Assembly: GCF_002902905.1 (NCBI RefSeq)
Contig: NZ_CP026124.1
Coordinates: 5,952,001-6,016,000 of the forward strand
Length of the DNA stretch: 64,000 nucleotides
DNA from: Achromobacter sp. AONIH1
GTDB taxonomy: Bacteria; Pseudomonadota; Gammaproteobacteria; Burkholderiales; Burkholderiaceae_B
Direction of reading: 5' to 3'
The notes beneath the pieces were generated by a model. The model saw only the letters and a program-made list of their open reading frames with translations. It was not told the DNA's origin and ran no database searches. Numbering within the stretch: position 1 is the first letter of the stretch; the number at the start of each line of letters is the position of its first letter. The translations under genes and the position numbers were made by a program. Of this stretch, positions 9,873-55,002 are shown piece after piece.

Positions 9873-9886
9873 GGGAAAGTCCGTCG

Positions 9887-10519: not shown

Positions 10520-10520
10520 G

Positions 10521-11258: not shown

Positions 11259-11274
11259 GTGCGGCTCCCTTGTC

Positions 11275-12750: not shown

Positions 12751-12753
12751 CGT

Positions 12754-16061: not shown

Positions 16062-16129
16062 GATGGAATCCGTCTGGGCTCAGGGCTGCCGCGGCGCGGG
16101 ATGCGGGGCGGCGCGCGGGGCGGTCGCGC

Positions 16130-17263
16130 TCATTGCGCGGCTTGCTGGGCGGGCGCCTGGGCGCCGGCCGCTTGCACGCGCAGCGGCGTGCCGGGCGGGA
16201 TCTTGGCGGCGCCGTCGACGATGACCTGGTCGCCCGCGGCCAGTCCCTGCGTGATCTGCCATTCCGATCCCTGCATGGCGCCGGTCTGCACCGGACGCTC
16301 CTGCGCCTTGCCGTCGGCCGCGACCAGCACCTTGGCCTGTCCGTCGGCGCCGCGCATGACGGCGCGCTGCGGCACGAAGATGGCGTTGCTCTGCACGCCC
16401 TGCTCGGCGCTGACGCGCACGTACATGCCCGGCAGCAGCAGTCCGTCGGGATTGCTGAACTGGCCGCGCAGCATCACCTGGCCCGTGCCCGGATCCACCG
16501 AAACGTCGGAGAACAGCAGCTTGCCCTTGGCCGTGTAGCCGGTGCCGTCGACGCGCACGCTGACCGCCGGCTCGGCCTGCGCCCCGGCCGCCGCCTCGCG
16601 CAGCTTGAGCAGCGCGTTGACGGGCTGGCGGAAGTCGGCATAGACCGGATCGAGCTGCTGGATCAGCGCCATGGGCGTGGATTCGCCTTGGCCCACCAGA
16701 CTGCCCTCGGTCACCAGGCCCCGGCCGATGCGGCCCGAGATCGGCGCGCGCACGCTGGCATAGCCCAGGTCGAGCTGGGCGGTCTTGACGTCGGCCTGCG
16801 CCGACACCTGGTTGGCCTTGGCGGTCTGCAGGGCGGCGACGGCATCGTCGTATTCCTGGCGGCTGACGGCCGCGATCTTCACCAGCGGCTGGTAGCGGTC
16901 GGCCAGCGCCTGGGCCTGGCGGACCTGGGCCTGGGCCCGCGCCAGCGCGCCCTGCGCCCGGGCCAGCGCGGCTTCGAACGGGGCCGGCTCGATCGTGAAC
17001 AGCAGGTCGCCTTCCTTGACGGTCGCGCCTTCCTCGAAGTGGCGCTTCTGGACGATGCCCGCCACCCGGGCGCGCACCTCGGCCACGCGCACCGGCGAGA
17101 TCCGGCCCGGCAGGTCGGCCAGGATGGCCTGGGATCGCGGCGCGACGACGAGCGGGGCCACGTCGATGGTCTGGTCTTGCGCCGCCTGGGGGTCCTGGCC
17201 GCCGCATCCGGCGAGCAAGGCGGTCAGGCTTAGGGCCGCTGCACTGGCTCTGAACTGGGTCAT
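16130..17263 (-). CDS. mexC: RND periplasmic adaptor lipoprotein (MexC-like)
   Basis: This 377-residue membrane fusion protein has a lipoprotein signal with lipobox LLAGC (about residue 19), a barrel-sandwich hybrid split around an alpha-helical hairpin (residues about 95-165, with Ala/Gln-rich helices), and a beta-barrel (DPGTGQVMLRGQFSNPDG) followed by a membrane-proximal domain. It links MexD to OprJ. The start at 17263 is chosen over the in-frame ATG at 17278 because AGAGGA lies just upstream of the former. It is the first gene of the efflux operon and is divergent from nfxB. Confidence 0.92.
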   Translation of the reverse strand: MTQFRASAAALSLTALLAGCGGQDPQAAQDQTIDVAPLVVAPRSQAILADLPGRISPVRVAEVRARVAGIVQKRHFEEGATVKEGDLLFTIEPAPFEAALARAQGALARAQAQVRQAQALADRYQPLVKIAAVSRQEYDDAVAALQTAKANQVSAQADVKTAQLDLGYASVRAPISGRIGRGLVTEGSLVGQGESTPMALIQQLDPVYADFRQPVNALLKLREAAAGAQAEPAVSVRVDGTGYTAKGKLLFSDVSVDPGTGQVMLRGQFSNPDGLLLPGMYVRVSAEQGVQSNAIFVPQRAVMRGADGQAKVLVAADGKAQERPVQTGAMQGSEWQITQGLAAGDQVIVDGAAKIPPGTPLRVQAAGAQAPAQQAAQ

Positions 17264-41006: not shown

Positions 41007-41036
41007 CGGCGCGGGCGGTTCAGCCCGCCCGCGCCG
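41007..41036. terminator. Bidirectional terminator hairpin, 12-bp perfect stem
   Basis: CGGCGCGGGCGG pairs without mismatch with CCGCCCGCGCCG around a 6-nt TTCAGC loop. It sits between the convergent TonB receptor and GMC oxidoreductase genes and contains the stop codon of the latter. Confidence 0.7.
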
Positions 41037-42621
41037 CATCCTCCAGGATCAGCTCGGCGCCGCGCTCGGCCACCATCATCACGGCGGCCTGGGTGTTGCC
41101 GGACACCATCCTCGGCATGACCGAGGCGTCCACCACCCGCAGGCCGTCCAGCCCGTTCACGCGCAGCCGGGAGTCCGTCACGGCATCCGGGTCCGCGCCC
41201 ATGCGGCAGGTGCCGATCGGGTGATAGATGGTCTGGCCGTTCTGGCGCGCGAAGTCCAGCCATTCGTCGTCGCTCTGCACGTCCTTGCCCGGACTCAGCT
41301 CGGCCGCCACGAAGGGCTGCAGGGCCGGCCGCGAGACGATGCGGCGCGCCGCCCGCATGCCGCCGACCAGGCTGTCGCGGTCGATCCGCGCCGCCAGGAA
41401 GTTGGGGCGGATGGCGGGCGCGGCCAGCGGATCGGCCGACACCGCATGAATCGAGCCCGTCGATTCGGGGCGCAGCTGCGCCACGCCGATGGTCATGCCG
41501 GGAAAGCGGTCCAGGATGCGCTCGGCCGCGTTGGCATAGCTGGCGTGCACGAAGAAGAATTGCACGTCGGGCTGCGCGAGCTGCGGCGCGCTCTTGACGA
41601 AACCGTGCGCCAGCCCCGTGCCCAGCGTCAGGATGCCCTGGCGCGACAGCGCGTAGCGCGCCACCTGCCGCGCCAGCCGCCAGCCGCGCGACATCTCGTT
41701 CAGCGTCACCGTGTTCTTCACGCGCCAGTTCATGCGCGTCGCGTAGTGGTCGATGTAGTTCTCGCCCACCTGCGGCAGCGCGTGCGCCAGCGGGATGCCG
41801 AGCCGGGCCAGCAACGCGGGATCGCCCACGCCCGACAGCTCCAGCAGCTGCGGCGATTGCACCGCGCCCAGGCACAGCAGCGTTTCGCGGCGCGCGCGCA
41901 CCATGTGCTCGCCGTCCCTGCCGCGATAGGCCAGGCCGACGCAGCGCCTGCCCTCGAACAGCAGCCGCGTGATGCGCGCGCCGCACTCGACCGTCAGGTT
42001 GGGCCGGCCCGAGGCCGGTTTCAGGTAGCCGTCCACCACGCTCCAGCGTCGCCCCCGGTGCTGCAGCACCTGGTAGTAGCCCACGCCTTCCTGGCTGCCG
42101 GCGTTGTAATCGGGATTGAGCGGCTGGCCGTCCTGCTGCGCGGCCTTCAGGAAGGCCTCGGCCACCGGATAGCGTTCCGAGACTTCATGCAGGCGCATGG
42201 GGCCGTCGTGGCCGCGCCCCGCGCCGCCTTTCTCATAGCATTCGATCTTGCGGAACAGGCGCTCGGCCTGGGCCCAGTTCCAGCCCGCCGCGCCGGCCGC
42301 CTCCCAGCCGTCGTAGTCCGCCGGCTGGCCGCGCACATAGATCATGCCGTTGATCAGCGTGGAGCCGCCCACGCCCTTGCCGCGCGGCACGGCGATGCGG
42401 CGGCCGTGCACGTTGTCCTCGGGCTCGGTGGAGAAGCGCCAGTTGTAGTCGGGATCGACCAGCAGCTTGGAAAATCCCGCGGGAATGCCGATCCAGGGAC
42501 TGCGGGCCTCGTGGCCGGCCTCCAGCATCAGCACGCGGTACTTGCCGTCGGCGCTCAGGCGGTTGGCCAGGATGCAGCCGGCGGTGCCGCCGCCGGCGAT
42601 GATGAAATCGTAATCGCTCAT
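41020..42621 (-). CDS. GMC-family FAD oxidoreductase (choline-dehydrogenase-like)
   Basis: A 533-residue flavoprotein with the N-terminal ADP-binding motif IIAGGGTAGCILANRLS, GMC signature 1 around GKGVGGSTLINGMIYVRG, signature 2 GAVQSPQLLELSGVGD and the C-terminal active-site region YHPIGTCRMG with the catalytic His, then NTQAAVMMVAERGAE. Members oxidise primary alcohols of choline, polyols or terpenols. It lies 4 bp after the AroE-like gene and is the last gene of the transketolase operon, so its substrate is probably a hydroxylated intermediate of that pathway; the pathway is unidentified. Confidence 0.9.
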   Translation of the reverse strand: MSDYDFIIAGGGTAGCILANRLSADGKYRVLMLEAGHEARSPWIGIPAGFSKLLVDPDYNWRFSTEPEDNVHGRRIAVPRGKGVGGSTLINGMIYVRGQPADYDGWEAAGAAGWNWAQAERLFRKIECYEKGGAGRGHDGPMRLHEVSERYPVAEAFLKAAQQDGQPLNPDYNAGSQEGVGYYQVLQHRGRRWSVVDGYLKPASGRPNLTVECGARITRLLFEGRRCVGLAYRGRDGEHMVRARRETLLCLGAVQSPQLLELSGVGDPALLARLGIPLAHALPQVGENYIDHYATRMNWRVKNTVTLNEMSRGWRLARQVARYALSRQGILTLGTGLAHGFVKSAPQLAQPDVQFFFVHASYANAAERILDRFPGMTIGVAQLRPESTGSIHAVSADPLAAPAIRPNFLAARIDRDSLVGGMRAARRIVSRPALQPFVAAELSPGKDVQSDDEWLDFARQNGQTIYHPIGTCRMGADPDAVTDSRLRVNGLDGLRVVDASVMPRMVSGNTQAAVMMVAERGAELILEDAARAG

Positions 42622-42625
42622 CGGC

Positions 42626-43423
42626 TCAGGCCCGCACGCCCATCATCTCGGCCATCAGCGCGATCTGGCAGGCCAGCATGGGCGCGCCATGGTGGACGCG
42701 GCAGCCGCGCGCCGCCGCCGCTTGCAGCAGCGCCGTGTCGCGCGGCTGCATGATGACCTCGCACACCAGTTGGTCCGGCGTCAGGCGGCCGGCGTCCAGC
42801 GGCAGCGGATCCGTGTCGCGCATGCCCAGCGAGGTGCCGTTGACGACCAGATCGTGGCCGGACGGATCCGCCCTGCCGATGTCGATGCGCGCATCGGGAA
42901 GCAGCGACAGGATGCGCGCCTTCAGGTCCTCGGCCTTGGCCGTCGTGCGGTTGGCGATGGTCAGCCGCGCCACGCCGGCCTGCGCCAGCGCGAAGCCGAT
43001 GGCGTTGGCCGCGCCGCCGGCGCCGGCCAGGTAGGCGCTCTTGCCCTTCGGGTCCACGCCGGCCTCGATCAGGCCGCCGACGAAGCCCTCGCCGTCCAGC
43101 ATGTGCGCCGTCAGCCTGCCGTCGGCGTCGCGTCGCACCACATTGGCCGCGCCGATCTTGCGCGCCACCGGCGTGGCCTCGTCGACCAGGTCCAGGATGG
43201 CTGTCTTGTGCGGCATGGTGACGATGAAGCCGCCCAGGTTCTGCAACTGCCGCAGCCCCTGCACCACCTGCGCCAGCTCCGCCGGGCGCGCGTGGAACGG
43301 CACGCACACGCCGTCGAAGCCCAGGCGCGCGAAGTGCTCGTTCATGCGCTGCGGCGTCTTCACGTGGTGGATGGGGTCGGCCAGGATGCCGAACAGCCGG
43401 GTATGGCCGCTGATTTCCTTCAT
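42626..43423 (-). CDS. AroE/YdiB-like dehydrogenase with an altered substrate motif
   Basis: A 265-residue shikimate-dehydrogenase-family protein. It keeps the catalytic Lys in VTMPHKTAI (about residue 71), the nucleotide loop LAGAGGAANAIGFALAQAG and NGTSLGM. However, the N-terminal Ser-x-Ser that binds the shikimate carboxylate in AroE is replaced (ADPIHHVKTPQRMN). It is therefore more likely a catabolic paralogue acting on quinate/shikimate-like or other polyhydroxylated substrates than the biosynthetic AroE. It is third in a four-gene minus-strand operon with the transketolase subunits and the GMC enzyme. Confidence 0.82.
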   Translation of the reverse strand: MKEISGHTRLFGILADPIHHVKTPQRMNEHFARLGFDGVCVPFHARPAELAQVVQGLRQLQNLGGFIVTMPHKTAILDLVDEATPVARKIGAANVVRRDADGRLTAHMLDGEGFVGGLIEAGVDPKGKSAYLAGAGGAANAIGFALAQAGVARLTIANRTTAKAEDLKARILSLLPDARIDIGRADPSGHDLVVNGTSLGMRDTDPLPLDAGRLTPDQLVCEVIMQPRDTALLQAAAARGCRVHHGAPMLACQIALMAEMMGVRA

Positions 43424-43437
43424 GGTGTGCTCCGAGG

Positions 43438-44463
43438 CTATTTCTGTTCCAGCAGCTCGCGCGCCACGGCGGCGATGCCGTCGGCGTCCAGCCGGTAATG
43501 GGCGTACAGCGCGGTGGGCGGCGCGATCAGGCTGTATTCGTCATGAATGCCGTGGCGGCGCAGGCGCACGCCCAGGCCGCCGTCGGCCAGCACCTCGGCC
43601 ACGGCCGAGCCCAGCCCGCCCATCACATTGTGCTCTTCCACCGTCAGCATCCGGCCGGCGGCGCGGGCCGCGGCCAGCACCGCGTCGCGGTCCAGCGGCT
43701 TGATGGTGGGCATGTCGATCACGCCGACCGACAGGCCGGCCTCGCGCAACCGTTCGGCGGCCTGCAGCGCCGCGTGCACGGCGATGCCGCAGGCGATGAT
43801 GTTCAGGTCGCCGCCCAGCGCGTGCGTGATGGCGCGGCCGAACCGGAACGGCGCGCCATCGGCGTAGACCTGTGGATCGCGGCCTCGGCCAATGCGGAAG
43901 TAGATGGGCTCGGGCCAATCGACGCTGGCCTTGATGGCCGAGGCCAGTTGCGGGCCGTCGGCCGGCGACACCACGGTCAGCCCGGCGATGGCGCGCGTGG
44001 TGGAGATGTCTTCGGTGGCATGGTGCGAGGTGCCGTAGAAGCCCAGGCTGATGCCGGTGTGATGACCGATCAGGCGCACCGGCAGCCGGGTATAGGCCAC
44101 GTCCATGCGGATCTGCTCGCAACACAGCAGGCCCAGGAAGGACGCGAAGGTGGCGACGAAGGGCATCAGCCCCGTGGTGGCCATGCCGGCGGCGGCCGAG
44201 ACCATGTTCTGTTCCGAGATGCCGAACTGCACATAGCGTTCGGGAAAGGCGGACGCGTAGCGGTTCAGGCCGTTCGAGTATTGCAGGTCGGCCGAGCCGG
44301 CCACGACGGGATGGCCGGCGCGCGTCAGATCGATGAGCGCGTCGGACAGATAGGACAGGCCGGGCGTGACCGCATTGAGCGCGCGGTACTGCCAGGATTC
44401 GGGGGAGCGCGGCGCGGATGGCGATCCGGAGTGCGGCCGGGTGTGCTGCTGGGATTGCGGCAT
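43438..44463 (-). CDS. Transketolase-like enzyme, C-terminal subunit
   Basis: A 341-residue protein equivalent to the pyrimidine-binding and C-terminal domains of transketolase. After a Pro/Ser-rich start it shows DLTRAGHPVVAGSADLQYSN, then PERYVQFGISEQNMVSAAAG with the catalytic Glu, then the phosphate/sugar-binding region and LTVEEHNVMGGLGSAVAEVL. It must assemble with the separately encoded N-terminal subunit, 6 bp upstream. Split transketolases occur in several carbohydrate-degradation operons; the substrate here is not apparent. Confidence 0.88.
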   Translation of the reverse strand: MPQSQQHTRPHSGSPSAPRSPESWQYRALNAVTPGLSYLSDALIDLTRAGHPVVAGSADLQYSNGLNRYASAFPERYVQFGISEQNMVSAAAGMATTGLMPFVATFASFLGLLCCEQIRMDVAYTRLPVRLIGHHTGISLGFYGTSHHATEDISTTRAIAGLTVVSPADGPQLASAIKASVDWPEPIYFRIGRGRDPQVYADGAPFRFGRAITHALGGDLNIIACGIAVHAALQAAERLREAGLSVGVIDMPTIKPLDRDAVLAAARAAGRMLTVEEHNVMGGLGSAVAEVLADGGLGVRLRRHGIHDEYSLIAPPTALYAHYRLDADGIAAVARELLEQK

Positions 44464-44469
44464 GGCGGT

Positions 44470-45327
44470 TCAGATCTCGCGGGACAGGATTTCGGCGACG
44501 GCGGCATCGGCGTCGGACGGGGCCAGGTAGCCCAGGTGCCAGCCGGGTTCGGTTTCCATATAGGACACGCCCTTGCCCTTGACGGTGCGGGCGATCACGC
44601 AGGCCGGCCGTTCGCGCGTGCCGTCCGCGCGCAGCCGGCGCAGCAGCGCGGTCAGCGCGGACAGGTCGTGGCCGTCGACCTCGTGCACGTCCCAGCCGAA
44701 GGCGCGCCACTTGTCGGCCAGCGATTCCACGCCGATCACGTCGTCGACCCGGCCGTCGAGCTGATAGCCGTTGCGATCGACGATGGCGATCAGGTTGGAC
44801 AGCCGGTGATGCGCGGCGAACAGCGCCGCTTCCCAGACCTGCCCTTCCTGCATCTCGCCGTCGCCCAGCATGACGAAGACGCGGAAATCGCGCTGGCCCA
44901 GGCGCGCGCCGACCGCCATGCCGGCGCCGTTGGACAGCGCGTGGCCGATGGAGCCGGAGCTGAAGTCCACGCCGGGCACCTTGCTCATGTCGGGATGGTC
45001 GCCCAGCGGGCTGCCCAGGCGGGTGTAGTCATCCAGCCATGCGCGCGGAAAGAAATCCTGGTCGGCCAGCACCGGGAACAGGCCGACGGCGACATGCCCC
45101 TTGCCCATGAGGAAGCGGTCGCGGTCCGGCCAGGCGGGCTCGCCCGGCCGCAGCCGCATCACGCCGTAGTACAGCGCGGCGAAGATCTCGGCGCAGGAAA
45201 AGACGGAGCTGTAGTGGCCGACCTTGGCGATCTCGATCAGGCGGATGGTTTCGAGCCGGATGTGGCGGGCCTTGTCCCGCAGCGTCCGAAGCTCGTCCTG
45301 GGTGGGCATTTCCAGGTCCGTGGGCAT
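44470..45327 (-). CDS. Transketolase-like enzyme, N-terminal (TPP) subunit
   Basis: A 285-residue TPP-binding subunit with GHYSSVFSCAEIFAALYYG near the start, GDHPDMSKVPGVDFSSGSIG, and the TPP/Mg motif GDGEMQEGQVWEAALFAA followed by IAIVDRNGYQLDG. The start at 45327 has AGGAG 7 nt upstream; an in-frame ATG at 45372 would extend through the operator at 45349-45361 and is rejected. It heads the minus-strand operon (TPP subunit, C subunit, AroE-like, GMC) and faces the divergent GntR gene. Confidence 0.88.
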   Translation of the reverse strand: MPTDLEMPTQDELRTLRDKARHIRLETIRLIEIAKVGHYSSVFSCAEIFAALYYGVMRLRPGEPAWPDRDRFLMGKGHVAVGLFPVLADQDFFPRAWLDDYTRLGSPLGDHPDMSKVPGVDFSSGSIGHALSNGAGMAVGARLGQRDFRVFVMLGDGEMQEGQVWEAALFAAHHRLSNLIAIVDRNGYQLDGRVDDVIGVESLADKWRAFGWDVHEVDGHDLSALTALLRRLRADGTRERPACVIARTVKGKGVSYMETEPGWHLGYLAPSDADAAVAEILSREI

Positions 45328-45348
45328 GGCGTCTCCTGCCGTTTTTAG

Positions 45349-45361
45349 ATATATCATATAT
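45349..45361. promoter_or_regulatory. GntR-regulon operator, copy 1 (transketolase/gntR)
   Basis: The palindrome ATATATCATATAT lies 21 bp upstream of the transketolase start and 89 bp upstream of the gntR start. The same 13-mer recurs at 48419-48431, and a 12/13 match occurs at 48208-48220. Its placement allows control of both divergent genes. Confidence 0.7.
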
Positions 45362-45450
45362 AATATACCCATCGCGCTCGAATTGGCTATGCCGGGCTAG
45401 AATTCGTTCCGGATTCACCCGTTCCTTCCCATACGCACGCCGCAACCGCC

Positions 45451-46155
45451 ATGCCCAGCCTTAAACCGGTCAAGAAAGAGAACCTGTCCGTCAGGGTCTA
45501 CAACGAAATCCGCAATGCCCTGATCAACGGGCAGTACGAGCCTGGCGAACGCCTGATCATCGGCGAGCTGGCCCAGGAAATGGGCGTGTCCATCACGCCC
45601 GTGCGCGAGGCCATCTTCCGGCTCATCAGCGAGCAGGGCCTGGAGATGCAGGCCGCCACCGCGGTCTACGTGCCCTATGTGAACTCCGAGAAGCTGCGCG
45701 AGATCCAGCAGATCCGCTTCCACCTTGAAGGCATGGGCGCGGCGGAGGCCGCCAAGCACATCACCCGCAAACAGCTCGACAACCTGATCGCGCTGCAACA
45801 GGAATTCCTGTCCTACACGGCCAGCGATCCCAAGCGGGCCAGCTACCTGAACCGCAAGTTCCATTTCGGCATCCTCGAGGCCAGCAACAAGCCCATCCTG
45901 CGCAATACGGTGGAATCGTTCTGGGTCATCACCGGCCCCATCCTGAAGGTCTTCCACGTCAAGACGGCCGGCATCGACTACACGCAGGATGAGCACCGCC
46001 ACGGGGCCGTGCTGGCCGCGCTGGAGGCGCGCGACTCCGAGGCCGCCGCCCGCGCCATCCAGGCCGACCTGGTCTGGGGCGGCAAGATCATGATCGACTG
46101 GCTGGTCGAGCGCGAGAAGGAAATGGACTACCGCCCGCCCGCCCCACGCAAATAG
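45451..46155 (+). CDS. GntR/FCD-family regulator
   Basis: A 234-residue regulator with an N-terminal winged helix (YNEIRNALINGQYEPGERL, then MGVSITPVREAIFRL, about residues 45-60) and a C-terminal all-helical FCD domain containing LNRKFHFGILEASN and DEHRHGAVLAALEARD, whose conserved His/Asp residues usually bind a metal and carboxylated ligand. It is divergent from the transketolase operon and followed after 8 bp by a GldA-like gene. The repeated 13-bp motif in three nearby promoters is its most likely operator. Confidence 0.88.
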   Translation: MPSLKPVKKENLSVRVYNEIRNALINGQYEPGERLIIGELAQEMGVSITPVREAIFRLISEQGLEMQAATAVYVPYVNSEKLREIQQIRFHLEGMGAAEAAKHITRKQLDNLIALQQEFLSYTASDPKRASYLNRKFHFGILEASNKPILRNTVESFWVITGPILKVFHVKTAGIDYTQDEHRHGAVLAALEARDSEAAARAIQADLVWGGKIMIDWLVEREKEMDYRPPAPRK

Positions 46156-46163
46156 GAAACCGC

Positions 46164-47231
46164 ATGCTGACGATCTTCGGCGCTCCCGGCCGCTACATAC
46201 AGGGCCCCGACGCACTGGACACCCTGGGCCGGCAGGCCGCCCTCTTCGGCCGCCGCGCCGCGCTGGTGATCGACGGCCCCATGCATGCCATCCTGGGCGC
46301 GCGCGTCGAGGCGCTGTGCGCCGCCAGCCAGGTGCGGGCAATGCCGCTGATCGTCGAAGGCGACCTGACGCCCGAGACCATCGAAGCGCTGCGCGCGCAG
46401 GCCGGCAGGCTCGACGCCGACATGGTCGTCGCGGTGGGCGGCGGCAAGGCGCTGGACGCCGGCAAGGCGGTGGCGCGCTCGCTGCATTGCCACCTGATCA
46501 CCGTGCCGACCGCGGCGTCGAACGACGCCCCCACCAGCAAGAACTACGTGCTGTACGACGCCGACCACAACCTGCTGGCGGTCGAGCACATGCTGTTCAA
46601 CCCCACCATCGTGCTGGTGGACACCACCGTCATCGCCAGCGCGCCGGCCGCCTTCTTCCGCGCCGGGCTGGGCGACGCCGTGTCCAAGAAGTTCGAGGCC
46701 GAGCAGTGCCGCCGCCACGGCGGATCCAATATGTATGGCGGCAAGCCGCCCCTGGCCGCGCAATTGCTGGCCGAGGGCTGCCTGCGCATCCTGCTGGAAG
46801 ACGGCGCCCAGGCGCTGGCAGCGGCCGGCACCGGCCGGCCCACGCCGGCCTTCGAGCGCGCGGTCGAGGCCATGATCCTGCTGAGCGGGCTGGGCTTTGA
46901 AAGCGGCGGCCTGTCCATCGCCCATGCGCTCACGCGCGGCCTGCCCCGCATCGCCGGCCTGGCCACCTCGGCCCACGGCTTGCAGGTGGCGCTGGGGCTG
47001 CTGGTGCAACTGGATCTGGAAGCGCGCGACGACGGCCTGCTGGCCGAGCTGACGCGCTGGTACGCGCAAGTGGGCCTGCCCGTCAGCCTGCGCGAGCTGG
47101 GCGCCACGGCGCCGACGGACGCGGAACTGGAAACCGCCGCCGCCCTGACCTTGAACGCGCGCCACGCGGCCAACTTCGACCGGACGCTGTCGGTGGCCGA
47201 ACTGGCCGCCGCGCTGCGCCGGCGCGCCTGA
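46164..47231 (+). CDS. Iron/zinc-type alcohol dehydrogenase (GldA-like)
   Basis: A 355-residue group III dehydrogenase with NAD-binding VAVGGGKALDAGKAVA, the VPTAASNDAPTS segment, and the metal ligands FRAGLGDAVSKKFEAE (Asp), GLSIAHALTRGL (His) and TSAHGLQVALG (His), as in glycerol dehydrogenase and glycerol-1-phosphate dehydrogenase. It oxidises a vicinal diol or polyol, or reduces the ketone. It is 8 bp from gntR with AGGAAA upstream, so the two form an operon. Confidence 0.87.
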   Translation: MLTIFGAPGRYIQGPDALDTLGRQAALFGRRAALVIDGPMHAILGARVEALCAASQVRAMPLIVEGDLTPETIEALRAQAGRLDADMVVAVGGGKALDAGKAVARSLHCHLITVPTAASNDAPTSKNYVLYDADHNLLAVEHMLFNPTIVLVDTTVIASAPAAFFRAGLGDAVSKKFEAEQCRRHGGSNMYGGKPPLAAQLLAEGCLRILLEDGAQALAAAGTGRPTPAFERAVEAMILLSGLGFESGGLSIAHALTRGLPRIAGLATSAHGLQVALGLLVQLDLEARDDGLLAELTRWYAQVGLPVSLRELGATAPTDAELETAAALTLNARHAANFDRTLSVAELAAALRRRA

Positions 47232-47341
47232 GCCCGGCCGCCTGAGACGCGCGCCGCGCCCGGGCGCGATGGTCGCGAGCGCGCGCCACGCAGTCTTGCG
47301 CGCCGCGCATTCCTGCCTTTGGCTGTCGCGTGATCAACAAA

Positions 47342-47366
47342 CCGGCGCCGCGATCTTCGGCGCCGG
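47342..47366. terminator. Bidirectional terminator hairpin
   Basis: CCGGCGCCG and CGGCGCCGG form a perfect 9-bp stem with a 7-nt loop in the gap between the convergent GldA-like and SDR genes. Confidence 0.6.
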
Positions 47367-47380
47367 CGGGCCTCATCCCG

Positions 47381-48163
47381 TCAATAGAGTTTCTGCGTGA
47401 AGCCGTCCACCACGATGGCCTGGCCGCTGACGCTGCGCGCCGCCTCGCTGGCGTTGAACAGCACCATGTTGGCGATGTCGCGCGCCGTGACCATGCGGCC
47501 CATCGCGGCCTGGTTCTCGTAGAGCGCGGCGATCTCCTCCACCGGCTTGCCCAGCGTCTCGGCCTTCGCGGCGATGACGGCGCGGATGCGCGGCCCTTCC
47601 ACCGCGCCCGGCAGGATCGCGTTGACGCGGATGCCATGCGGGCCCAGCTCGATGGCCAGCGATTTGGTGAAGCCGATCACCGCCCATTTCGACGCCGAAT
47701 AGACCGAACGGCCGGCGAAGCCCAGGTGGCCGGCGGCCGAGGACAGGTTGATCATCACGCCGGCCTTGGACGCCTTGAGCAGCGGAATGGCCTGGCGCGC
47801 GCACAGGAACTGGCCGGTGATGTTGACGGCCAGCGTGCGGTCCCAGTCGGCCTTGGACAGGGTCTCGACAAAACCGGTGGGCCCCGCCACGCCGGCGTTG
47901 TTCACCAGCACATCCAGCCCGCCCAGCTCGCGCGCCACGGCCTGGAACAGCGCCGCCACGCTGTCCTCGTCCGACACATCGGCGCGCAGCGCGTGCACGC
48001 CAGGCAGCTCGGCGGGCAGCGCGGCCAGCCGGGACTCGTTCACGTCGCAGACGAACACCCGGGCGCCGGCGCGATGGAACACGCGGGCCATCTCCAGGCC
48101 CAGCCCGTCGGCGCCCGCGGTGATCAAGACCTTCTTTCCAGCGAAATCGACTTCTTCGAACAT
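47381..48163 (-). CDS. Short-chain dehydrogenase/reductase (SDR)
   Basis: A 260-residue classical SDR with the cofactor loop ITAGADGLGLEMAR, VNNAGVAGP, the catalytic Ser in NLSSAAG and Tyr-x-x-x-Lys in VYSASKWA. The Asp after beta-2 (VFVCDV) suggests NAD rather than NADP. It is monocistronic, converging on the GldA-like gene, and has operator copy 2 44 bp upstream of its start. It probably carries out one oxidation in the pathway governed by GntR. Confidence 0.88.
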   Translation of the reverse strand: MFEEVDFAGKKVLITAGADGLGLEMARVFHRAGARVFVCDVNESRLAALPAELPGVHALRADVSDEDSVAALFQAVARELGGLDVLVNNAGVAGPTGFVETLSKADWDRTLAVNITGQFLCARQAIPLLKASKAGVMINLSSAAGHLGFAGRSVYSASKWAVIGFTKSLAIELGPHGIRVNAILPGAVEGPRIRAVIAAKAETLGKPVEEIAALYENQAAMGRMVTARDIANMVLFNASEAARSVSGQAIVVDGFTQKLY

Positions 48164-48207
48164 GCTAGCTGCCTCCTGGTTCTCACATGGCCTACGCCAC
48201 TCGGTGA

Positions 48208-48220
48208 TATACGATATATT
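48208..48220. promoter_or_regulatory. GntR-regulon operator, copy 2 (SDR)
   Basis: The minus strand reads ATATATCGTATAT, a 12-of-13 match to copies 1 and 3, 44 bp upstream of the SDR start codon. Confidence 0.65.
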
Positions 48221-48418
48221 TTTTCACTACGCGAAAAAGGATTCCGAAATCCAATGGGGACGGGCTTATCCTCAGGCTGAAACAGCCCCCAATCTTGCGC
48301 ATCGTTGCGCCAGAATCGGCCGCAAAGGCTTTATTCATGCGGCTTGAGGGAAATCCCCGATTCGTCCTCCTGGCACCGCCACTAGAATCCATGGCGAGGT
48401 TTCACGACCCGATATCAC

Positions 48419-48431
48419 ATATATCATATAT
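48419..48431. promoter_or_regulatory. GntR-regulon operator, copy 3 (importer operon)
   Basis: ATATATCATATAT, identical to copy 1, lies 57 bp upstream of the start of the importer's binding-protein gene. GATATC sits directly 5' of it. Confidence 0.7.
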
Positions 48432-48488
48432 TCAAAAGACGGACGCAGCACCGGCCAGTCCGCATCCCATACCGACAAAGGAGCGCAG

Positions 48489-49688
48489 ATGTACAAGTTC
48501 AAGAAACTCGTCCTGGCCTTGGGGCTGTGCGGCGCGGTGGCGACCGGAACCGCGGCGGCGGACATGAAGGTGGGGGCCCTCTTCCCATTCAGCGGCGCGC
48601 TGGCGCTGCTGGGGCAGGAGAGCTATCGCGGCCTGGAGCTGGCCGTCAACGAGATCAACGCCGCGGGCGGCATCAACGGCGAGAAGATCCAGATCGTCAA
48701 GGCCGACGCGGTCGACCCGACCCAGGCCGTGTCCGAAACCAAGCGCCTGATCTCATCCAACGTGATCGGCGTGTTCGGCAGCTACGCGTCCGGCATTTCC
48801 TACGCCGCCTCGCCGGTCACGGAGCTGGCGGGCGTGCCCTACTTCGAGCTGGGCGCCACCGCCCACAAGATCACCACGCGCGGCTACAAGTACCTGTTCC
48901 GCAGCAATCCCAACACGGCGCTGTACGGCGTGTCGGTGGTCAACGCCCTGCACGAGACCATCGCGCCGGGCATGGGGCTGAATCCCAAGGACATCAAGAT
49001 CGGCATCATCCACGAGGACGGCCCCTACGGCACCGACGTGGCCGCCACCGAGAAGAAGCGCGCGCAGGAGCTGGGCTACACGGTGGCCGAAGTGCTGCCC
49101 TATTCCGCCAAGACGGTGGACCTGTCCTCGCTCATCCTGCGTCTGAAGGGCGCCAAGGTGGACGTGGTGCTGCAAACGGCCTACCAGAACGACGCCATCC
49201 TGTTCTTCAGCCAGGCGCGCGCCGCGGGCTTCAAGCCCAAGGTCGTGATCGGCGCGGGCGGCGGCTATTCGCTGGCCGACACCGCCAAGGCGGTGGGCGC
49301 CGACATGAACGGCGTGTTCGACCTGGACTTCCCGCAGTCCTCGATCAATCCGGCCGGCGCGCCGGGGCTGGACAAGTTCCTGGAAGCCTACAAGTCCACC
49401 TACAAGAGCGATCCGCAGTCGGGCCACAGCCTGACCAACTACGTGGGCGCCAAGGCCTTCTTCGACGCCATCGCCAAGGCCAAGTCCACCGACAAGGACA
49501 AGATCCGCGCCTCGGTGCTGGCCTACAAGGTGCCGGCCGGCCAGACCGCAAACGGCTGGGCCTTCGACTTCGGCGAGGACGGCCAGAACAACGCATCGAC
49601 CTTCTACGTGATGCAGTGGCAGGACGGCAAGCTGGTCACGATCGCGCCCAGCAACCTCGCCCTCGGCAAGCCGGTATTCAACAAGTAA
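48489..49688 (+). CDS. ABC importer solute-binding protein (LivK family)
   Basis: A 399-residue periplasmic type I binding protein with a signal peptide (cleavage after TAAA, about residue 24). The mature start MKVGALFPFSGALALLGQES and INAAGGINGEKIQIVKADAV are classic LivK/HAAT features. The family binds branched-chain amino acids but also amides, urea, aromatic and short-chain acids. It heads a six-gene operon that includes two oxidoreductases, with AAAGGAG upstream. The substrate is likely the compound degraded by the GntR-controlled enzymes. Confidence 0.9.
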   Translation: MYKFKKLVLALGLCGAVATGTAAADMKVGALFPFSGALALLGQESYRGLELAVNEINAAGGINGEKIQIVKADAVDPTQAVSETKRLISSNVIGVFGSYASGISYAASPVTELAGVPYFELGATAHKITTRGYKYLFRSNPNTALYGVSVVNALHETIAPGMGLNPKDIKIGIIHEDGPYGTDVAATEKKRAQELGYTVAEVLPYSAKTVDLSSLILRLKGAKVDVVLQTAYQNDAILFFSQARAAGFKPKVVIGAGGGYSLADTAKAVGADMNGVFDLDFPQSSINPAGAPGLDKFLEAYKSTYKSDPQSGHSLTNYVGAKAFFDAIAKAKSTDKDKIRASVLAYKVPAGQTANGWAFDFGEDGQNNASTFYVMQWQDGKLVTIAPSNLALGKPVFNK

Positions 49689-49805
49689 ACGCCGAGCCGG
49701 CATCCGGCGCCAGGACCGCCCGCGGGGGCTCCTCGCGCCGGCCGCCGGACACACGCGGCCCCGCCGTCGCCCGGCCGGGGCCGTGCATCGACTAGAGGTT
49801 GCATC

Positions 49806-50672
49806 ATGGATATCTTCATACAACTGGTCATCAACGGCCTGTTGCTGGGCGGCGCGTACACCATCATCAGCCTGGGGCTGACGCTGATCTTCGGCGTGGT
49901 GCGCGTGGTCAACTTCGCGCACGGCGAGTTCCTGATGGTGGGCATGTACCTGGTCTACCTGATCGCCGCGCAGTTCGGCGTCCATCCCTACCTGGGCCTG
50001 GCGCCGGTCGCCGTCATCCTGTTCGCGCTGGGCGCGCTGACGCAGAAGGGCATCATCCAGCCGCTGCTCAACGCCGACCAGCACATCCAGATCTTCGCCA
50101 CGGTGGGCGTGTCCACCATCCTGCTGAACCTGGCCCTGGTGCTGTTCGGCGCCAACGTGCTGCGCGCGCCGGTGCAGCTGGGCACCAGCGCCATCGACGT
50201 GGGCAGCTACTCGATGGTGAGCGGCCAGATCATCACCTTCGTGGTCGGCATCAGCCTGGCGGTGCTGCTGCACCTGTTCATGCACCGCACCTACCTGGGC
50301 CGGGCGCTGCGCGCCGTGGCCCAGCACCGCTACGCCGCCACGCTGATGGGCGTAAACGTGAACAACGTCTACGCCATCGCGTTCGGCCTGGGCACGGCCT
50401 TCGTCGGCATCGCCGCCGGCCTGCTGGCGCCGCAGTACCCGGTGTTCCCGACCGTGGGCACGTACTTCGTGCTGACGGCCTTCGTCATCGTGGTGCTGGG
50501 CGGGCTGGGCAGCCTGTACGGCGCCGTGGCCGGCTCGATGATCATCGGCATCGTCGACACGCTGGCCGGCTACTACGTCGCGCCCGACCTCAAGGAGGTC
50601 GTGTATTTCGGGATCTTCCTGCTGATCCTCGTCCTGCGTCCGACCGGCCTGTTCGGCGTCGGCACGGAATGA
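49806..50672 (+). CDS. ABC importer permease (LivH family)
   Basis: A 288-residue permease with LivH features: INGLLLGGAYTIISLGLTLI near the start, VVNFAHGEFLMVGMY, and the ATPase-contacting loop RALRAVAQHRYAATLMGVN. About eight membrane helices are predicted. AGAGG precedes the ATG. The gene follows the binding-protein gene after 117 bp and is followed after 23 bp by the fused LivM-LivG gene. Confidence 0.9.
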   Translation: MDIFIQLVINGLLLGGAYTIISLGLTLIFGVVRVVNFAHGEFLMVGMYLVYLIAAQFGVHPYLGLAPVAVILFALGALTQKGIIQPLLNADQHIQIFATVGVSTILLNLALVLFGANVLRAPVQLGTSAIDVGSYSMVSGQIITFVVGISLAVLLHLFMHRTYLGRALRAVAQHRYAATLMGVNVNNVYAIAFGLGTAFVGIAAGLLAPQYPVFPTVGTYFVLTAFVIVVLGGLGSLYGAVAGSMIIGIVDTLAGYYVAPDLKEVVYFGIFLLILVLRPTGLFGVGTE

Positions 50673-50695
50673 ACGGAACGACAAGGAGAAAAAAC

Positions 50696-52477
50696 ATGTT
50701 CCCCGATCTACGCAGTCCCAAGGGCTATGTCGGCCTGATCCTGATGCTGGCCATGCTGGCCGCGCCGCTGGCGCTGGGCACGCCGTTCTGGACCAACCTG
50801 TTCGTGCTGCTGTTCGTGTTCTCGGCCCTGTCGGTGGCCTGGAACATCGTGGGCGGCTACGCCGGCCAGCTGTCGCTGGGCCACGCCGTGTTCTACGGCA
50901 TCGGCGGGTACACCGCCACGCTGCTGACGCAGAACTTCGGCATCTCGCCCTGGTTCGGCATGCTCGCCGGCGCCGTGATCTCGGCGGCCGTGGCCGTCGT
51001 GATCAGCTATCCCACGCTGCGCCTGCGCGGCCCCTTCTTCGCGCTGGCGACCATCGCCATCCTGGAGGTGGTGCGCCTGCTGGTGATCCACGAGGAAAGC
51101 TGGACCGGCGGCTCCAGCGGCATCAGCCTGCCGCTGAACATCGGCTGGACCTGGATCGTGTTCCGCGAGAAGGCCAACTACGTGCTGATCGCCTTCGCGC
51201 TGTTCGCGCTGGTGACCTGGGTGTCCTGGTACATGCGCAAATCGCGCATCGGCCACTACCTGATCGCCATCCGCGAACGCGAGGACGCGGCGCTGGCCGT
51301 GGGCATCCACACCGTGCGCATGAAGATCATCGCCGCCGTGGTGTCGGCCATGCTGACCAGCATCGTCGGCGCCTTCCACATCACCTACCTGACCTTCGTC
51401 GACCCCAGCTCGGCCTTCTCGCTGGAGCTGTCGGTGCAGGTGGCCATGTTCGCGCTGATCGGCGGGCTGGGCACGGTGGCCGGCCCCATCGCCGGCACCT
51501 TCCTGGTGCTGCCCATCGCCGAACTGGCGCGCGGCTGGCTCAGCAGCGTGGGCAACGGCATGCACGGGCTGATCTACGGCCTGATCCTGGTGGCCGTGGT
51601 GCTGACCATCCCGCGCGGGCTGGCCGGCGCGTTCGGCCCGATGATCGAACGCTGGCTGGCGCGCCTGCCCTACCTGGGCGCGCCGCGCCGCCCCGCCACG
51701 CCGCCGCAGCAGGCGCGGCCGGCGGGACCGGCGGCCGCCGGCCAGCCGGTGCTCAAGGCCGACAGGCTGTTCAAGAGCTTCGGCGGCCTGCGCGCCACCA
51801 ACGATGTATCGCTGACGCTGAACCAGAACGAGATCCTGGGCATGATCGGCCCCAACGGCGCGGGCAAGACCACGGTGTTCAACCTGCTGTCCGGCTTCCT
51901 GTCGCCGGACCAGGGTTCGGTGTCCATGCTGAACGCGCGCGGCGAGTGGGTCAGCTGCAAGACGCCGGATGCCTTCGCCCACCAGGGCCTGGGCCGCACC
52001 TTCCAGATCGCCAAGCCCTTCACCGGCCTGACGGTGCTGGAGAACATCATGCTGGGCGCGTTCATCCGCACGTCCAGCCGCGACGAGGCCGAGCAGATCG
52101 CGCTCCGGGTGGCCGAGCAGACCGACCTGACCCGGCACCTGGACACCGAGGCGCGCAACCTGACCGTGGGCGGCATGAAACGCCTGGAAGTGGCGCGCGC
52201 GCTGGCGATCCAGCCGCGCATCCTGCTGCTGGACGAGGTGATGGCGGGCCTGAATCCCACCGACATCGAGAAGTCCATCCAGATGATCCGCCGCATCCGC
52301 GACTCGGGCGTGTCGGTGCTGCTGATCGAGCACATGATGCAGGCCACCATGGCGCTGTCCGACCGCATCGTGGTGCTGAACGAAGGCGCGGTGCTGGTCA
52401 GCGGCGCGCCCAGGGACGTGGTCGAGAACCCCGCCGTCATCGAGGCCTATCTGGGCAAGGAGTATCAGGATGCTTAA
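50696..52477 (+). CDS. Fused ABC permease-ATPase (LivM-LivG)
   Basis: A 593-residue fusion. Residues 1-325 are a LivM permease (NIVGGYAGQLSLGHAVFYGI; loop IREREDAALAVGIHTVRMK). A Pro/Ala-rich linker of about 25 residues follows, and residues 350-593 are a LivG-type ATPase with Walker A GPNGAGKTT, signature LTVGGMKRLEVARAL, Walker B LLLDEVMAGLNP and the IEHMM H-loop. The signature is LTVGGMKR in place of LSGGQ-type. Fusion fixes permease and nucleotide-binding domain in one chain. AAGGAG lies 7 nt before the ATG, and the 3' end overlaps the LivF gene by 8 bp. Confidence 0.92.
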   Translation: MFPDLRSPKGYVGLILMLAMLAAPLALGTPFWTNLFVLLFVFSALSVAWNIVGGYAGQLSLGHAVFYGIGGYTATLLTQNFGISPWFGMLAGAVISAAVAVVISYPTLRLRGPFFALATIAILEVVRLLVIHEESWTGGSSGISLPLNIGWTWIVFREKANYVLIAFALFALVTWVSWYMRKSRIGHYLIAIREREDAALAVGIHTVRMKIIAAVVSAMLTSIVGAFHITYLTFVDPSSAFSLELSVQVAMFALIGGLGTVAGPIAGTFLVLPIAELARGWLSSVGNGMHGLIYGLILVAVVLTIPRGLAGAFGPMIERWLARLPYLGAPRRPATPPQQARPAGPAAAGQPVLKADRLFKSFGGLRATNDVSLTLNQNEILGMIGPNGAGKTTVFNLLSGFLSPDQGSVSMLNARGEWVSCKTPDAFAHQGLGRTFQIAKPFTGLTVLENIMLGAFIRTSSRDEAEQIALRVAEQTDLTRHLDTEARNLTVGGMKRLEVARALAIQPRILLLDEVMAGLNPTDIEKSIQMIRRIRDSGVSVLLIEHMMQATMALSDRIVVLNEGAVLVSGAPRDVVENPAVIEAYLGKEYQDA

Positions 52478-53174
52478 GGTTTCGAAACTGTGCTCGGGCT
52501 ATGGCAAGAGCCAGGTGCTCAACGGCCTGGATTTCGAGGTGCGCGCCGGCGAGATCGTCACGCTGATCGGCGCCAACGGCGCCGGCAAGACCACCACGCT
52601 CAAGACGCTGTGCGGCGTGGTCGCGGCCACCGGCGGCAAGGTCGAGTTCGAGGGCCGCGACCTGACCAACCGTCCGCCCTACGACATCGTCGACGCCGGC
52701 ATCACCATGATTCCGGAGGGCCGCCAACTGTTCCCGCACTTCACCGTCAAGGACAATCTGCTGATGGGCTCGTACAAGCGCGCCGCGCGTCCCATCGTGC
52801 AGCGCAAGCTCGAAGAGGTGTTGCAGATCTTCCCGCGCGTGCGCGAGCGGCTGGCCCAGTACGCCGGCTCGCTGTCCGGCGGAGAGCAGCAGATGGTGGC
52901 GATCGCGCGCGGCATGATGGCCGACCCCAAGCTGCTGGTGTTCGACGAGCCCTCGCTGGGCCTGTCGCCACTGCTGGTGCAGCAGATGTTCGACATCATC
53001 CGCGACGTCACCGCGCACGGCGTGACCGTGCTGCTGGTGGAGCAGAACGTGTTCCGCACGCTGCGCCTGGCCGATCGTGGCTACGTGCTGGAGAACGGCG
53101 CCATCGTGCGCGCCGGCACCGGCGCCGAGCTGCTCGGCGACCCCCATGTCAAGAAGGCCTATCTGGGCCACTGA
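52470..53174 (+). CDS. ABC importer ATP-binding protein (LivF family)
   Basis: A 234-residue ATPase with Walker A GANGAGKTT, PEGRQLFPHFTVKDNL (LivF hallmark), signature LSGGEQQMVAIARGM and Walker B LLVFDEPSLGLSP, then VEQN for the H-loop region. It forms a heterodimer with the ATPase half of the fused protein. It overlaps that gene by 8 bp and is followed 26 bp later by a quinone-oxidoreductase-like gene, so catabolic enzymes are cotranscribed with the importer. Confidence 0.9.
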   Translation: MLKVSKLCSGYGKSQVLNGLDFEVRAGEIVTLIGANGAGKTTTLKTLCGVVAATGGKVEFEGRDLTNRPPYDIVDAGITMIPEGRQLFPHFTVKDNLLMGSYKRAARPIVQRKLEEVLQIFPRVRERLAQYAGSLSGGEQQMVAIARGMMADPKLLVFDEPSLGLSPLLVQQMFDIIRDVTAHGVTVLLVEQNVFRTLRLADRGYVLENGAIVRAGTGAELLGDPHVKKAYLGH

Positions 53175-53200
53175 ATATCACGCAAAAGGAAACACGCGCC

Positions 53201-54196
53201 ATGTCATTGCGCTGCGCTTACATCGACCACGGCAAGGGCGGCCCGCCCGACATCCTGCGCCTGGCCGAAAGAGAAATGGAAGCCCCCGCCGGGCGGCAGG
53301 TGCTGATCGAAGTGGCCTATGCCGGCGTCAACCGTCCGGATGTGCTGCAGCGGTCCGGCTCCTATCCGCCGCCGCCCGGCGCGTCCCCTCACCTGGGACT
53401 GGAAGTGTCCGGCACGGTCATCGCCACCGGCCCGCAGGCCAGCCGCTGGCGGGTCGGCGACCAGGTCTGCGCGTTGACGCCCGGCGGCGGCTACGCGCAA
53501 TACTGCCTGGCCGACGAACGCCATTGCCTGCCGGTGCCACGCGGCATGGACCTGCTGACCGCCGCCGCCATTCCCGAGAATTACTACACGGTCTGGACCA
53601 ATGTGTTCGAGCGCGCGCGGCTGGCGGCGGGCGAGCGCTTCCTGGTGCACGGCGGCTCCAGCGGCATCGGCCTGACCGCCATCCAGCTCGCGCGCGCCTT
53701 CGGCGCCGAAGTCTGGACCACGGTGGGCAACGCCGAGAAGGCGGCGGCCTGCATCGAGGCCGGCGCGCGGCACGCGCTGATCTACCGCGACACCGACTAC
53801 GAGGACGCCATCCGCCAGGCCACCGGCGGCCAGGGCGTGGATGTGATCCTGGACATGGTGGGCGGCGCCTACCTCAACAAGAACATCCGCCTGCTGGCGC
53901 TGAACGGCCGGCTGGTGCAGATCGCTTTCCTGGAAGGCAGCAAGGCCGAGATCGACGCGCTGCCCATCATGACCAAGCGCCTGACCGTCACCGGCTCGAC
54001 GCTGCGGCCGCGCTCGGACGAGGACAAGGGCGAAATCGCCCGCGCGCTGGCCGAACGCGTGCTGCCGCTGATGGAGCAAGGTCAATGCCTGCCGCGCATC
54101 CACCAGGTCTTTCCGCTGGCCGAGGCCGCCGGCGCGCACGCGCTGATGGAAAGCAGCCGCCACATCGGCAAGATCATGCTGCAGGTGCGGCCATGA
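53201..54196 (+). CDS. Zinc-independent NADPH:quinone oxidoreductase-like protein
   Basis: A 331-residue medium-chain dehydrogenase/reductase of the quinone oxidoreductase (PIG3/QOR) type: GVNRPDVLQRSGSYPPPPGA near residue 45, ALTPGGGYAQYCLADE, and the cofactor loop VHGGSSGIGLTAIQLARAFG. Zinc-ligand Cys residues are absent. Such proteins reduce quinones or enones with NADPH. It lies 26 bp after livF and its stop overlaps the next SDR gene by ATGA. Confidence 0.88.
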   Translation: MSLRCAYIDHGKGGPPDILRLAEREMEAPAGRQVLIEVAYAGVNRPDVLQRSGSYPPPPGASPHLGLEVSGTVIATGPQASRWRVGDQVCALTPGGGYAQYCLADERHCLPVPRGMDLLTAAAIPENYYTVWTNVFERARLAAGERFLVHGGSSGIGLTAIQLARAFGAEVWTTVGNAEKAAACIEAGARHALIYRDTDYEDAIRQATGGQGVDVILDMVGGAYLNKNIRLLALNGRLVQIAFLEGSKAEIDALPIMTKRLTVTGSTLRPRSDEDKGEIARALAERVLPLMEQGQCLPRIHQVFPLAEAAGAHALMESSRHIGKIMLQVRP

Positions 54197-55002
54197 GCGC
54201 GGGCACGCATGCGGCCCCGGCATCCGCCACGTCCGGCGCAGCGCGCTTCGCCGGCCAGACCGCCATCGTCACCGGCGCCGTCGGCGGCATCGGCTCGGCC
54301 ATCGTCGAGGGCCTGCTGGCCGAGGGCGCGCGGGTCGGCCTGATCGACTTCAACGGCCTGGCCGGCGATGCCTGGGCCGGCCAGCTGCGCGGCCAGGGCC
54401 GCGCGGTCTGCTTCGCCCTGGCCGATGTGTCGCGCTACGAGGAATGCGAAGCCGCCTACGCCCGCATCAGCGACGAACTCGGCCCGGCCACGATCCTCAT
54501 CAACAACGTCGGCATCTCGCCCAAGACCGAGGGGCGCGCGCTCAAGGTCTGGGAAATGCCGCCCGCCGAGTGGGACCGCGTGGTGTCGGTGAACCTGAAC
54601 AGCGCGTTCTACATGACGCGCCTGGCCACGCCGCACATGGTGGCGCAGCGCAAGGGTCGCGTCATCAACATGTCCTCGGTGGCGGGCAAGGCCTATTGCG
54701 ATATCGTGGCGGCGCACTACGCCGCCACCAAGGCCGCGCTGATCGGCCTGACGCGGCACTGGGCCGCCGAGCTGGGCGAGTACGACGTGACCGTCAACGG
54801 CCTGGCGCCGGGACGCATCAGCACGCCGCTGCTCAAGAGCGTGCCGCAGGAGATCAACGACGCCGTGGCCGGCGTGACGGCGCTGCGGCGGCTGGGCACG
54901 CCCGAGGAAGTGGCCGACGCCTGCCTGTTCTTCGCCTCCGACCAGGCCCGCTTCGTGACGGGTCAGGTGCTGGACGTGGCGGGCGGCTGGTTGATGACCT
55001 GA
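54193..55002 (+). CDS. Short-chain dehydrogenase/reductase (FabG-like)
   Basis: A 269-residue classical SDR with an Ala/Ser-rich N-terminal 18 residues, cofactor loop VTGAVGGIGSAIVEG, INNVGISP, catalytic Ser in NMSSVAGKAYCD and Tyr-x-x-x-Lys in YAATKAALIGL, and the C-terminal LDVAGGWLMT. The Asp in LIDFNG suggests NAD preference. It is the last gene of the importer operon, starting in the ATGA overlap with the quinone-oxidoreductase gene, and is distinct from the SDR at 47381-48163. Confidence 0.87.
   Translation: MSAGTHAAPASATSGAARFAGQTAIVTGAVGGIGSAIVEGLLAEGARVGLIDFNGLAGDAWAGQLRGQGRAVCFALADVSRYEECEAAYARISDELGPATILINNVGISPKTEGRALKVWEMPPAEWDRVVSVNLNSAFYMTRLATPHMVAQRKGRVINMSSVAGKAYCDIVAAHYAATKAALIGLTRHWAAELGEYDVTVNGLAPGRISTPLLKSVPQEINDAVAGVTALRRLGTPEEVADACLFFASDQARFVTGQVLDVAGGWLMT

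Follow-up and report, generated by a model that had tools for sequence, protein, structure and literature searches.

AT-only palindromes as the probable operators of a GntR-family regulator in an import and breakdown cluster of Achromobacter sp. AONIH1

Which protein, if any, reads three near-identical palindromes of A and T in DNA with a G+C content of 69.3%? The question is raised by a 64,000-nucleotide stretch of the Achromobacter sp. AONIH1 genome (contig NZ_CP026124.1, positions 5,952,001 to 6,016,000; hereafter the window), in which an odd palindrome of 13 bp, ATATAT-S-ATATAT with C or G at its centre, stands before several operons around gntR, a gene for a regulator of the GntR superfamily. 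The three AT-only copies very probably act as on/off switches that put a cluster of genes for import and breakdown under the control of this one protein.

Copy 1 of the palindrome (45349-45361, plus strand) has the exact sequence ATATATCATATAT and lies between gntR and the divergent tktNC-aroE-gmc operon, whose first gene encodes the N-terminal subunit of a split transketolase (TktN). Copy 3 (48419-48431, plus strand), again exactly ATATATCATATAT, precedes an importer operon that begins with the gene of a periplasmic binding protein (SBP), and copy 2 (48207-48219, minus strand) reads ATATATCGTATAT and precedes the gene of a short-chain dehydrogenase, SDR1. The original prediction had noted the identical word at 45349 and 48419 and a third, minus-strand copy with one change; all three are present, the third starting one base before the position then given for it (48208). 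Read from the sequence, the distances from site to start codon are 21 bp for TktN, 43 bp for SDR1 and 57 bp for SBP, in agreement with the predicted 21 to 57 bp upstream of first genes, and copy 1 also faces gntR as proposed, with 89 bp to the gntR start on its opposite side.

The rarity of the motif was assessed in the window and in the whole genome (6,648,943 bases, single contig). Allowing up to two mismatches, the window holds nine matches against 0.01 expected from shuffled windows, these nine being both-strand and overlapping readings of the same three places. The pattern ATATATCRTATAT has three perfect matches genome-wide, every one at the present locus, against about 0.0014 expected from a first-order model of the window, which bears out the earlier statement that an AT-only motif is improbable by chance in DNA of about 70% GC. 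The whole-genome scan proposed as a check thus found perfect matches confined to the locus and not many copies at unrelated promoters. At one mismatch ATATATCRTATAT has one additional place in the genome (2813397), and no place beyond the three was found for ATATATSATATAT with 0 or 1 mismatch. Matches to ATATATSATATAT at two mismatches (17 per strand genome-wide) carry little information, because further places then appear and a backwards control also gives 9 per strand. When three positions were drawn at random 100,000 times from 41020-55002, all three fell at most 120 bp upstream of one of the four first-gene starts in a single draw, with the 120-bp limit set post hoc on data already seen.

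As the motif is AT-only and overlaps -10-like sequences, it might instead be a shared core-promoter element or an AT-rich element bound by nucleoid proteins, and no operator. Three perfect copies in 6.65 Mb with none elsewhere make this very improbable, and we rejected both versions on the genome-wide rarity of the motif. The conservation of the sites argues in the same direction: all 13 positions are nearly invariant among 44 distinct left-site (copy 1) and 46 distinct importer-site sequences while the flanks diverge. The logos were built from the best motif match per upstream region, which favours uniformity, and nearly all matches are exact. In the left-site logo (44 distinct sequences), positions -6 to -1 hold 1.58-2.00 bits. 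The SDR1 site varies (G, C or A) at the position just after its centre. The centre of copy 1 on the gntR strand is C in the window and G in most relatives, that is, the opposite orientation.

Also at odds with a core-promoter or nucleoid-protein element, the motif tracks one regulator gene across genera. Among 268 genomes of the family, a pattern search found the motif in 80 and a protein search found an orthologue of GntR (E<=1e-50) in 66. The motif occurs in 65 of the 66 orthologue-bearing genomes versus 15 of the 202 without an orthologue, and in 23/24 versus 15/202 when the own genus is left out; because the genomes are related, p-values for this co-occurrence overstate independence. Orthologues were found in 42 of 43 genomes of the own genus and in 10 of 43 genera, nine of which include an orthologue-bearing genome with the exact motif. 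In the sole exception (G219), where the GntR is 54% identical, the two corresponding operon heads each carry a site with one mismatch. Class-wide, one of 369 sampled genomes (its own) holds an orthologue at E<=1e-45, among the matches listed, with at most seven candidates per genome.

The position of the sites in related loci was analyzed by mapping 48 and then twenty loci with the proteins of the window; the tally comprises the 56 with the regulator gene (L064-L116, L129-L131), three genomes being counted twice (L112, L113 and L114 repeat the genomes of L102, L097 and L092). A gene entered the count when its match started no later than residue 15 and 200 bp of upstream sequence were available, and a site if it lies at most 250 bp upstream of the start with at most one mismatch. 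By these measures a site precedes TktN in 43/43 loci, SBP in 47/47 and gntR in 55/56. None was found before operon-internal genes, namely those of the GMC enzyme (0/55), the iron-type alcohol dehydrogenase FeADH (0/47), LivH (0/52), LivMG (0/53), LivF (0/53), the quinone-oxidoreductase-like protein QOR (0/47), the short-chain dehydrogenase SDR2 (0/22) and the C-terminal transketolase subunit TktC (0/6); the total of 0/335 is a weak control, because what lies upstream of a gene inside an operon is mostly coding sequence rich in GC. Two operon rearrangements are better tests. The aroE-like gene has a site in 12 of 54 loci, and these are the 12 loci that lack the transketolase genes. SDR1 has a site in 34 of 43 loci, six of which (L094-L096, L129-L131) have one site common to SDR1 and SBP; in the nine SDR1 loci without a site (six distinct genomes), the importer operon is turned and SDR1 is its last gene. 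The same switch thus appears to have been kept ahead of the same operons across related genera. In one locus (L115 of genome G046, 4101-16135), the AroE-like, TktC and QOR proteins each match in two separate pieces, a pattern expected of gene decay or of errors in the assembly.

The product of gntR (45451-46155, plus strand) is a VanR-type FCD regulator of 234 residues. It scores above the Pfam cut-offs for the N-terminal winged helix (PF00392, 53.4 bits) and the C-terminal FCD domain (PF07729, 65.5 bits), and an AlphaFold model (18 sequences; mean pLDDT 83.1, pTM 0.77) shows an effector domain of six helices at residues 79-226. The VanR and FadR groups are told apart by the number of helices in this domain, FadR having one more (passages of PMC7797058). 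The model lacks the extra FadR helix after the linker, and the structures closest to it in fold, those of McbR, a Brucella GntR protein and Atu1419, are in line with the VanR group. The best solved match both by sequence (104.6 bits) and by fold is McbR of Escherichia coli.

The recognition helix of this regulator, SITPVREAIFRL, departs from the FadR type at the residue that reads guanine. In FadR and Atu1419 this residue is Arg45, and a G-to-A change in the Atu1419 operator abolished binding, as described in parts of PMC7797058. Here the helix runs, in FadR numbering, Ser44-Ile45-Thr46-Pro47-Val48-Arg49-Glu50, so that Ile45 (Ile48 in its own numbering) takes the place of the arginine. When the 35 FCD proteins of the genome were aligned, position 45 was Arg in 29, Ala in four, Phe in one and Ile only in this GntR, whose wing also lacks a glycine that is present in most of the other FCD proteins of the genome. 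The helix is identical in 18 aligned orthologues while the DNA flanking the sites diverges. The operator consensus of the FadR subfamily consists of TKGT/ACMA boxes, generalized as NyGTNxACNy (passages of PMC4494728), whereas the 13-bp sites ATATATSATATAT are without paired GT/AC boxes; partial exceptions are GTATAT in one half of the SDR1 site and, in most relatives, GTATAT as the outer third half-site on the left. An isoleucine at the position of the guanine-reading arginine fits an operator without GT/AC boxes, and GntR would be a natural reader of such an operator.

The genome encodes 35 FCD proteins, and the sites might really be bound by a different FCD-type GntR whose gene lies elsewhere in it; FCD genes from other lineages do occur near the motif in other genomes. 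A site is nevertheless present within 250 bp of this gntR in 55/56 loci and rare where the gene is absent, and this GntR alone among the 35 has Ile45, so that a different binder is highly unlikely. The motif is not exclusive to this regulator elsewhere, as the 15 orthologue-less family genomes that carry it attest. Five of these are reduced genomes of about 0.8 Mb, in which AT-only words are to be expected. We looked at seven of the 15 (L117-L124), leaving out these five as well as G213, G214 and G221, and at four extra motif places in orthologue-bearing genomes (L125-L128). Another FCD-type GntR gene lies within about 1.7 kb of the motif in 5 of these 12 stretches, representing three lineages (L117, L118 and L123/L125/L126), and position 45 of the encoded proteins is His, Val or Pro. 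No FCD-type GntR gene was recognised in the remaining seven of L117-L128; an IclR gene adjoins the site in L120, the site is within a LysR gene in L124 and within an open frame in L119, L121 and L128 (L119, L121, L122, L127 and L128 were read as open frames, without library scans).

ATATATSATATAT-like sites near FCD genes with Val or Pro at position 45 are found in L118 (5021-5052), L123 (5040), L125 (5046) and L126 (5002), with a DapA-like gene (by sequence) as a neighbour in L118 and a class III aminotransferase gene in L123. These may be separate regulons that share the operator. A comparison over four lineages gave Arg45 in 0/4 versus 29/34 (p = 0.0017), a comparison picked post hoc. That the regulator and its orthologues make up a distinct VanR specificity class, combining loss of Arg45 with AT-only ATATAT half-sites repeated every 7 bp, a word whose rarity in a 69% GC genome keeps it private to one regulon, is a tentative proposal about which we are rather doubtful. 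In such a class Arg45 is replaced by Ile here and by Val, His or Pro in the other-lineage FCD regulators near the motif. A general rule by which the absence of Arg45 entails an AT-only operator was tried and rejected, as it was only partly borne out: one of five other non-Arg45 FCD proteins (L166) has an AT-only palindrome, but so does the Arg45-bearing L148, and other Arg45 proteins of the same genome have AT-rich palindromes. The L166 regulator (Ala45; gene G000:C1:6585330-6585731) has the AT-only palindrome AATATATATATT upstream.

Beside each of the two plus-strand copies, at 45349 and 48419, stands a partial third half-site, offset by 7 bp. The one extending copy 1 (45356-45368, ATATATAATATAC) contains TATAAT at 45359-45364, a possible -10 element of gntR, and the one beside copy 3 (48412-48424, ATATCACATATAT) has two mismatches. 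In most relatives the left site is extended to GTATATTATATATSATATAT, that is, three half-sites with a 7-bp period. This extended stretch offers TATAAT on the gntR strand, overlapping copy 1, and a -10-like TATATT on the tkt strand, abutting it. The left extension may serve as a half-site, as a -10 element or in both roles; GntR operators with further half-sites 7-12 nt from their centre have been described (passages of PMC4494728). In 27 of the 29 places with both the SDR1 and the SBP site, the window included, the two are 211-214 bp apart, or about 20 turns, the exceptions being 202 bp in L073 (about one turn less) and 154 bp in L090, which is without SDR1. By contrast, the distance from the site to gntR varies over 23 bp in L064-L089. 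The kept spacing is a hint of helical phasing and no more; a tetramer may bridge the two operators across these roughly 20 helical turns.

In all likelihood, GntR is an autoregulated repressor of the tkt operon, SDR1 and the importer operon whose operator overlaps -10 elements and which is released by a metabolite. It would bind ATATAT-S-ATATAT as a dimer, each subunit taking one half-site, in the three promoter regions, and would thereby repress gntR itself as well as the split-transketolase operon, SDR1 and the importer genes. Because the copies overlap or abut -10-like elements, the bound protein would block RNA polymerase, and a pathway intermediate or substrate would bind the FCD domain and release GntR. 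The predicted GntR-controlled regulon is supported at the level of sequence by the co-occurrence of motif and regulator, the operon-head position of the sites, the rearrangements and the unusual recognition helix, and autoregulation by an operator in the promoter region of gntR itself as well as before the target operons. We infer, rather than observe, binding, repression as opposed to activation, ligand release and the membership of the genes in one pathway. As to the ligand, an effector of this group of regulators is not necessarily a substrate of the pathway, as dihydrofolate for McbR (passages of PMC13343897) and methylenetetrahydrofolate for Atu1419 (passages of PMC7797058) show.

Bound to the same sites, this GntR could also activate the catabolic operons, or both activate and repress them. 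Activators normally sit at or upstream of -35. Here the distance to the start codon is 21 to 57 bp at all three sites, and copy 1, which stops 21 bp short of tktN, includes or adjoins -10-like elements. Most sites are, on the other hand, without a -35 partner in a promoter scan, and CitO, a GntR regulator, binds upstream of the cit promoters and induces with citrate (passages of PMC4746285). On balance, activation is improbable.

Several observations weigh against the repressor model. Repression is deduced from the position of the sites alone, and the promoter scan found only a tkt-side pair at copy 1, with none for gntR nor at copies 2 and 3. The genomes compared are related and thus non-independent samples, the internal-gene control is weak, and picking the best match per upstream region favours uniform logos. 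A Rhizobiales orthologue (L110) has no site in its contig of 6.2 kb, in which gntR follows tktC and an SDR gene and the operon head is beyond the contig end. Finally, in E. coli K-12 no ATATATSATATAT was found within two mismatches in 10 kb around mcbR or mcbA. The parallel with McbR is therefore loose, despite the same helix.

Among known systems, McbR/YncC (PDB 4p9f; VanR group, FCD subfamily) is the closest in fold, with a TM score of 0.80 by query length and 32% identity in the fold alignment. The start of the recognition helix, SITPVREA, is identical, the wing is also without the usual glycine, and the site derived from chromatin immunoprecipitation (ChIP) is said to seem to include ATATAT (passages of PMC13343897); McbR, YncC and ATATAT are all absent from the text of PMC8464067. 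McbR differs in that it has been reported at very many AT-rich sites, whereas the motif of the present regulator is confined to one locus, and no common operon was seen around mcbR. This different neighbourhood and the 32% identity argue against orthology of the two regulators. Atu1419 of Agrobacterium (VanR group, operator ATGTATACAT) shares the VanR-type fold; it represses a catabolic cluster from identical palindromes at several promoters, including its own region, some overlapping -10 (passages of PMC7797058). There, Arg45 reads guanine; here, Ile45 goes with 13-bp sites without GT/AC boxes. NanR of E. coli, also of the GntR type, likewise has more than two repeated half-sites, in its (GGTATA)3 operator (passages of PMC8012715), but these are direct repeats with G, and its structure matches the model weakly (6on4_A, TM 0.42). 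Neither the regulon nor the motif is named in the papers found, and the three with the exact motif were all eukaryotic, judging by title and abstract; the search covered neither regulon databases nor supplementary material such as the tables of PMC4494728.

Gene positions follow the reading frames and gene names the Pfam and NCBIfam matches; LivMG and LivF were instead named from sequence without a library scan. On the minus strand, copy 1 is followed by the genes of TktN (44470-45327), TktC (43438-44463), a shikimate-dehydrogenase-family oxidoreductase (aroE-like; 42626-43423) and a choline-dehydrogenase-like flavoprotein oxidoreductase of the GMC family (41020-42621). The aroE-like enzyme scores below all NCBIfam cut-offs listed, and its solved relatives include 5-ketofructose reductase 7cok. 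On the plus strand, gntR is followed after 8 bp by the gene of the GldA-like FeADH (46164-47231; Pfam Fe-ADH), whose best NCBIfam match is a glycerol dehydrogenase subfamily at 323.7 bits, below the cut-off of 336. Under copy 2 stands SDR1 (47381-48163, minus strand). The importer operon under copy 3 (plus strand) encodes a HAAT (Liv-type) system, with SBP (48489-49688), a LivH-type permease (49806-50672), LivM permease and LivG ATPase in one frame of 602 aa with no internal stop (50669-52477) and a LivF-type ATPase (52470-53174), followed by QOR of the PIG3 family (53204-54196, start approximate; above the cut-off of TIGR02824) and SDR2 (54223-55002, start approximate; library scan). In relatives livM-livG likewise matches as one stretch. 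The predicted count of twelve genes besides gntR is correct if this fused frame is taken as one gene. An amidohydrolase gene on the opposite strand (55098-56537; D-aminoacylase-like by our own reading, with weak NCBIfam matches) ends just after SDR2. A scan with an anti-phage library gave no match.

The split transketolase and the GldA-like, shikimate-dehydrogenase-like and GMC enzymes point to a small polyhydroxylated compound as the substrate, and a pair of enzymes found in relatives, the cleavage enzyme BKACE and a 3HCDH-family dehydrogenase, points to a 3-hydroxy acid. In relatives, SDR1 is followed by the 3HCDH-family gene and the BKACE gene, which lie between FeADH and SDR1 (L064, 11826-13713); among the loci with SDR1, BKACE is present in 43/43 and 3HCDH in 42/43. 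These two enzymes of a relative were the only ones among those scanned to pass an NCBIfam equivalog cut-off, the BKACE model being named for 3,5-dioxohexanoate and the 3HCDH-family model having a generic name. In the window neither is encoded in the 150-bp gap 47231-47381 and tblastn gave no match, which probably reflects a loss inside the regulon; four BKACE homologues are found elsewhere in the genome, the best at 66%. Six loci without tkt, FeADH and SDR1 (L098, L101, L103-L106) keep a core of the aroE-like enzyme, GMC, importer and SDR2, and all but L105 also keep QOR. A cluster of Paraburkholderia bryophila combines the same 3HCDH-family and BKACE enzyme kinds as occur after SDR1 in relatives (passages of PMC6365646). 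It differs in having an AraC-family regulator, and the window differs from it in being without 3HCDH and BKACE genes at this place. A Pseudomonas simiae cluster with a GntR-like regulator has the palindrome GTGATCAC, and in the passages of PMC6365646 on the two clusters a transketolase, a GMC enzyme and a Liv importer all go unmentioned. A small oxygenated molecule that the GMC and dehydrogenase enzymes oxidise is the likely substrate, with deoxyribonate as a lead, not a conclusion.

Taken together, the locus represents what is, on well-supported sequence grounds, a new regulon of a known kind of regulator, in which operator and recognition helix depart from the family norm. Operator and reading residue break jointly with the GT/AC rule of the family, which makes GntR recognition testable by one residue and one base pair per half-site. 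Tying several oxidoreductases, a split transketolase and an importer to one signal narrows the search for the substrate, and an AT-only operator in GC-rich genomes may be a simple way of keeping a regulon private.

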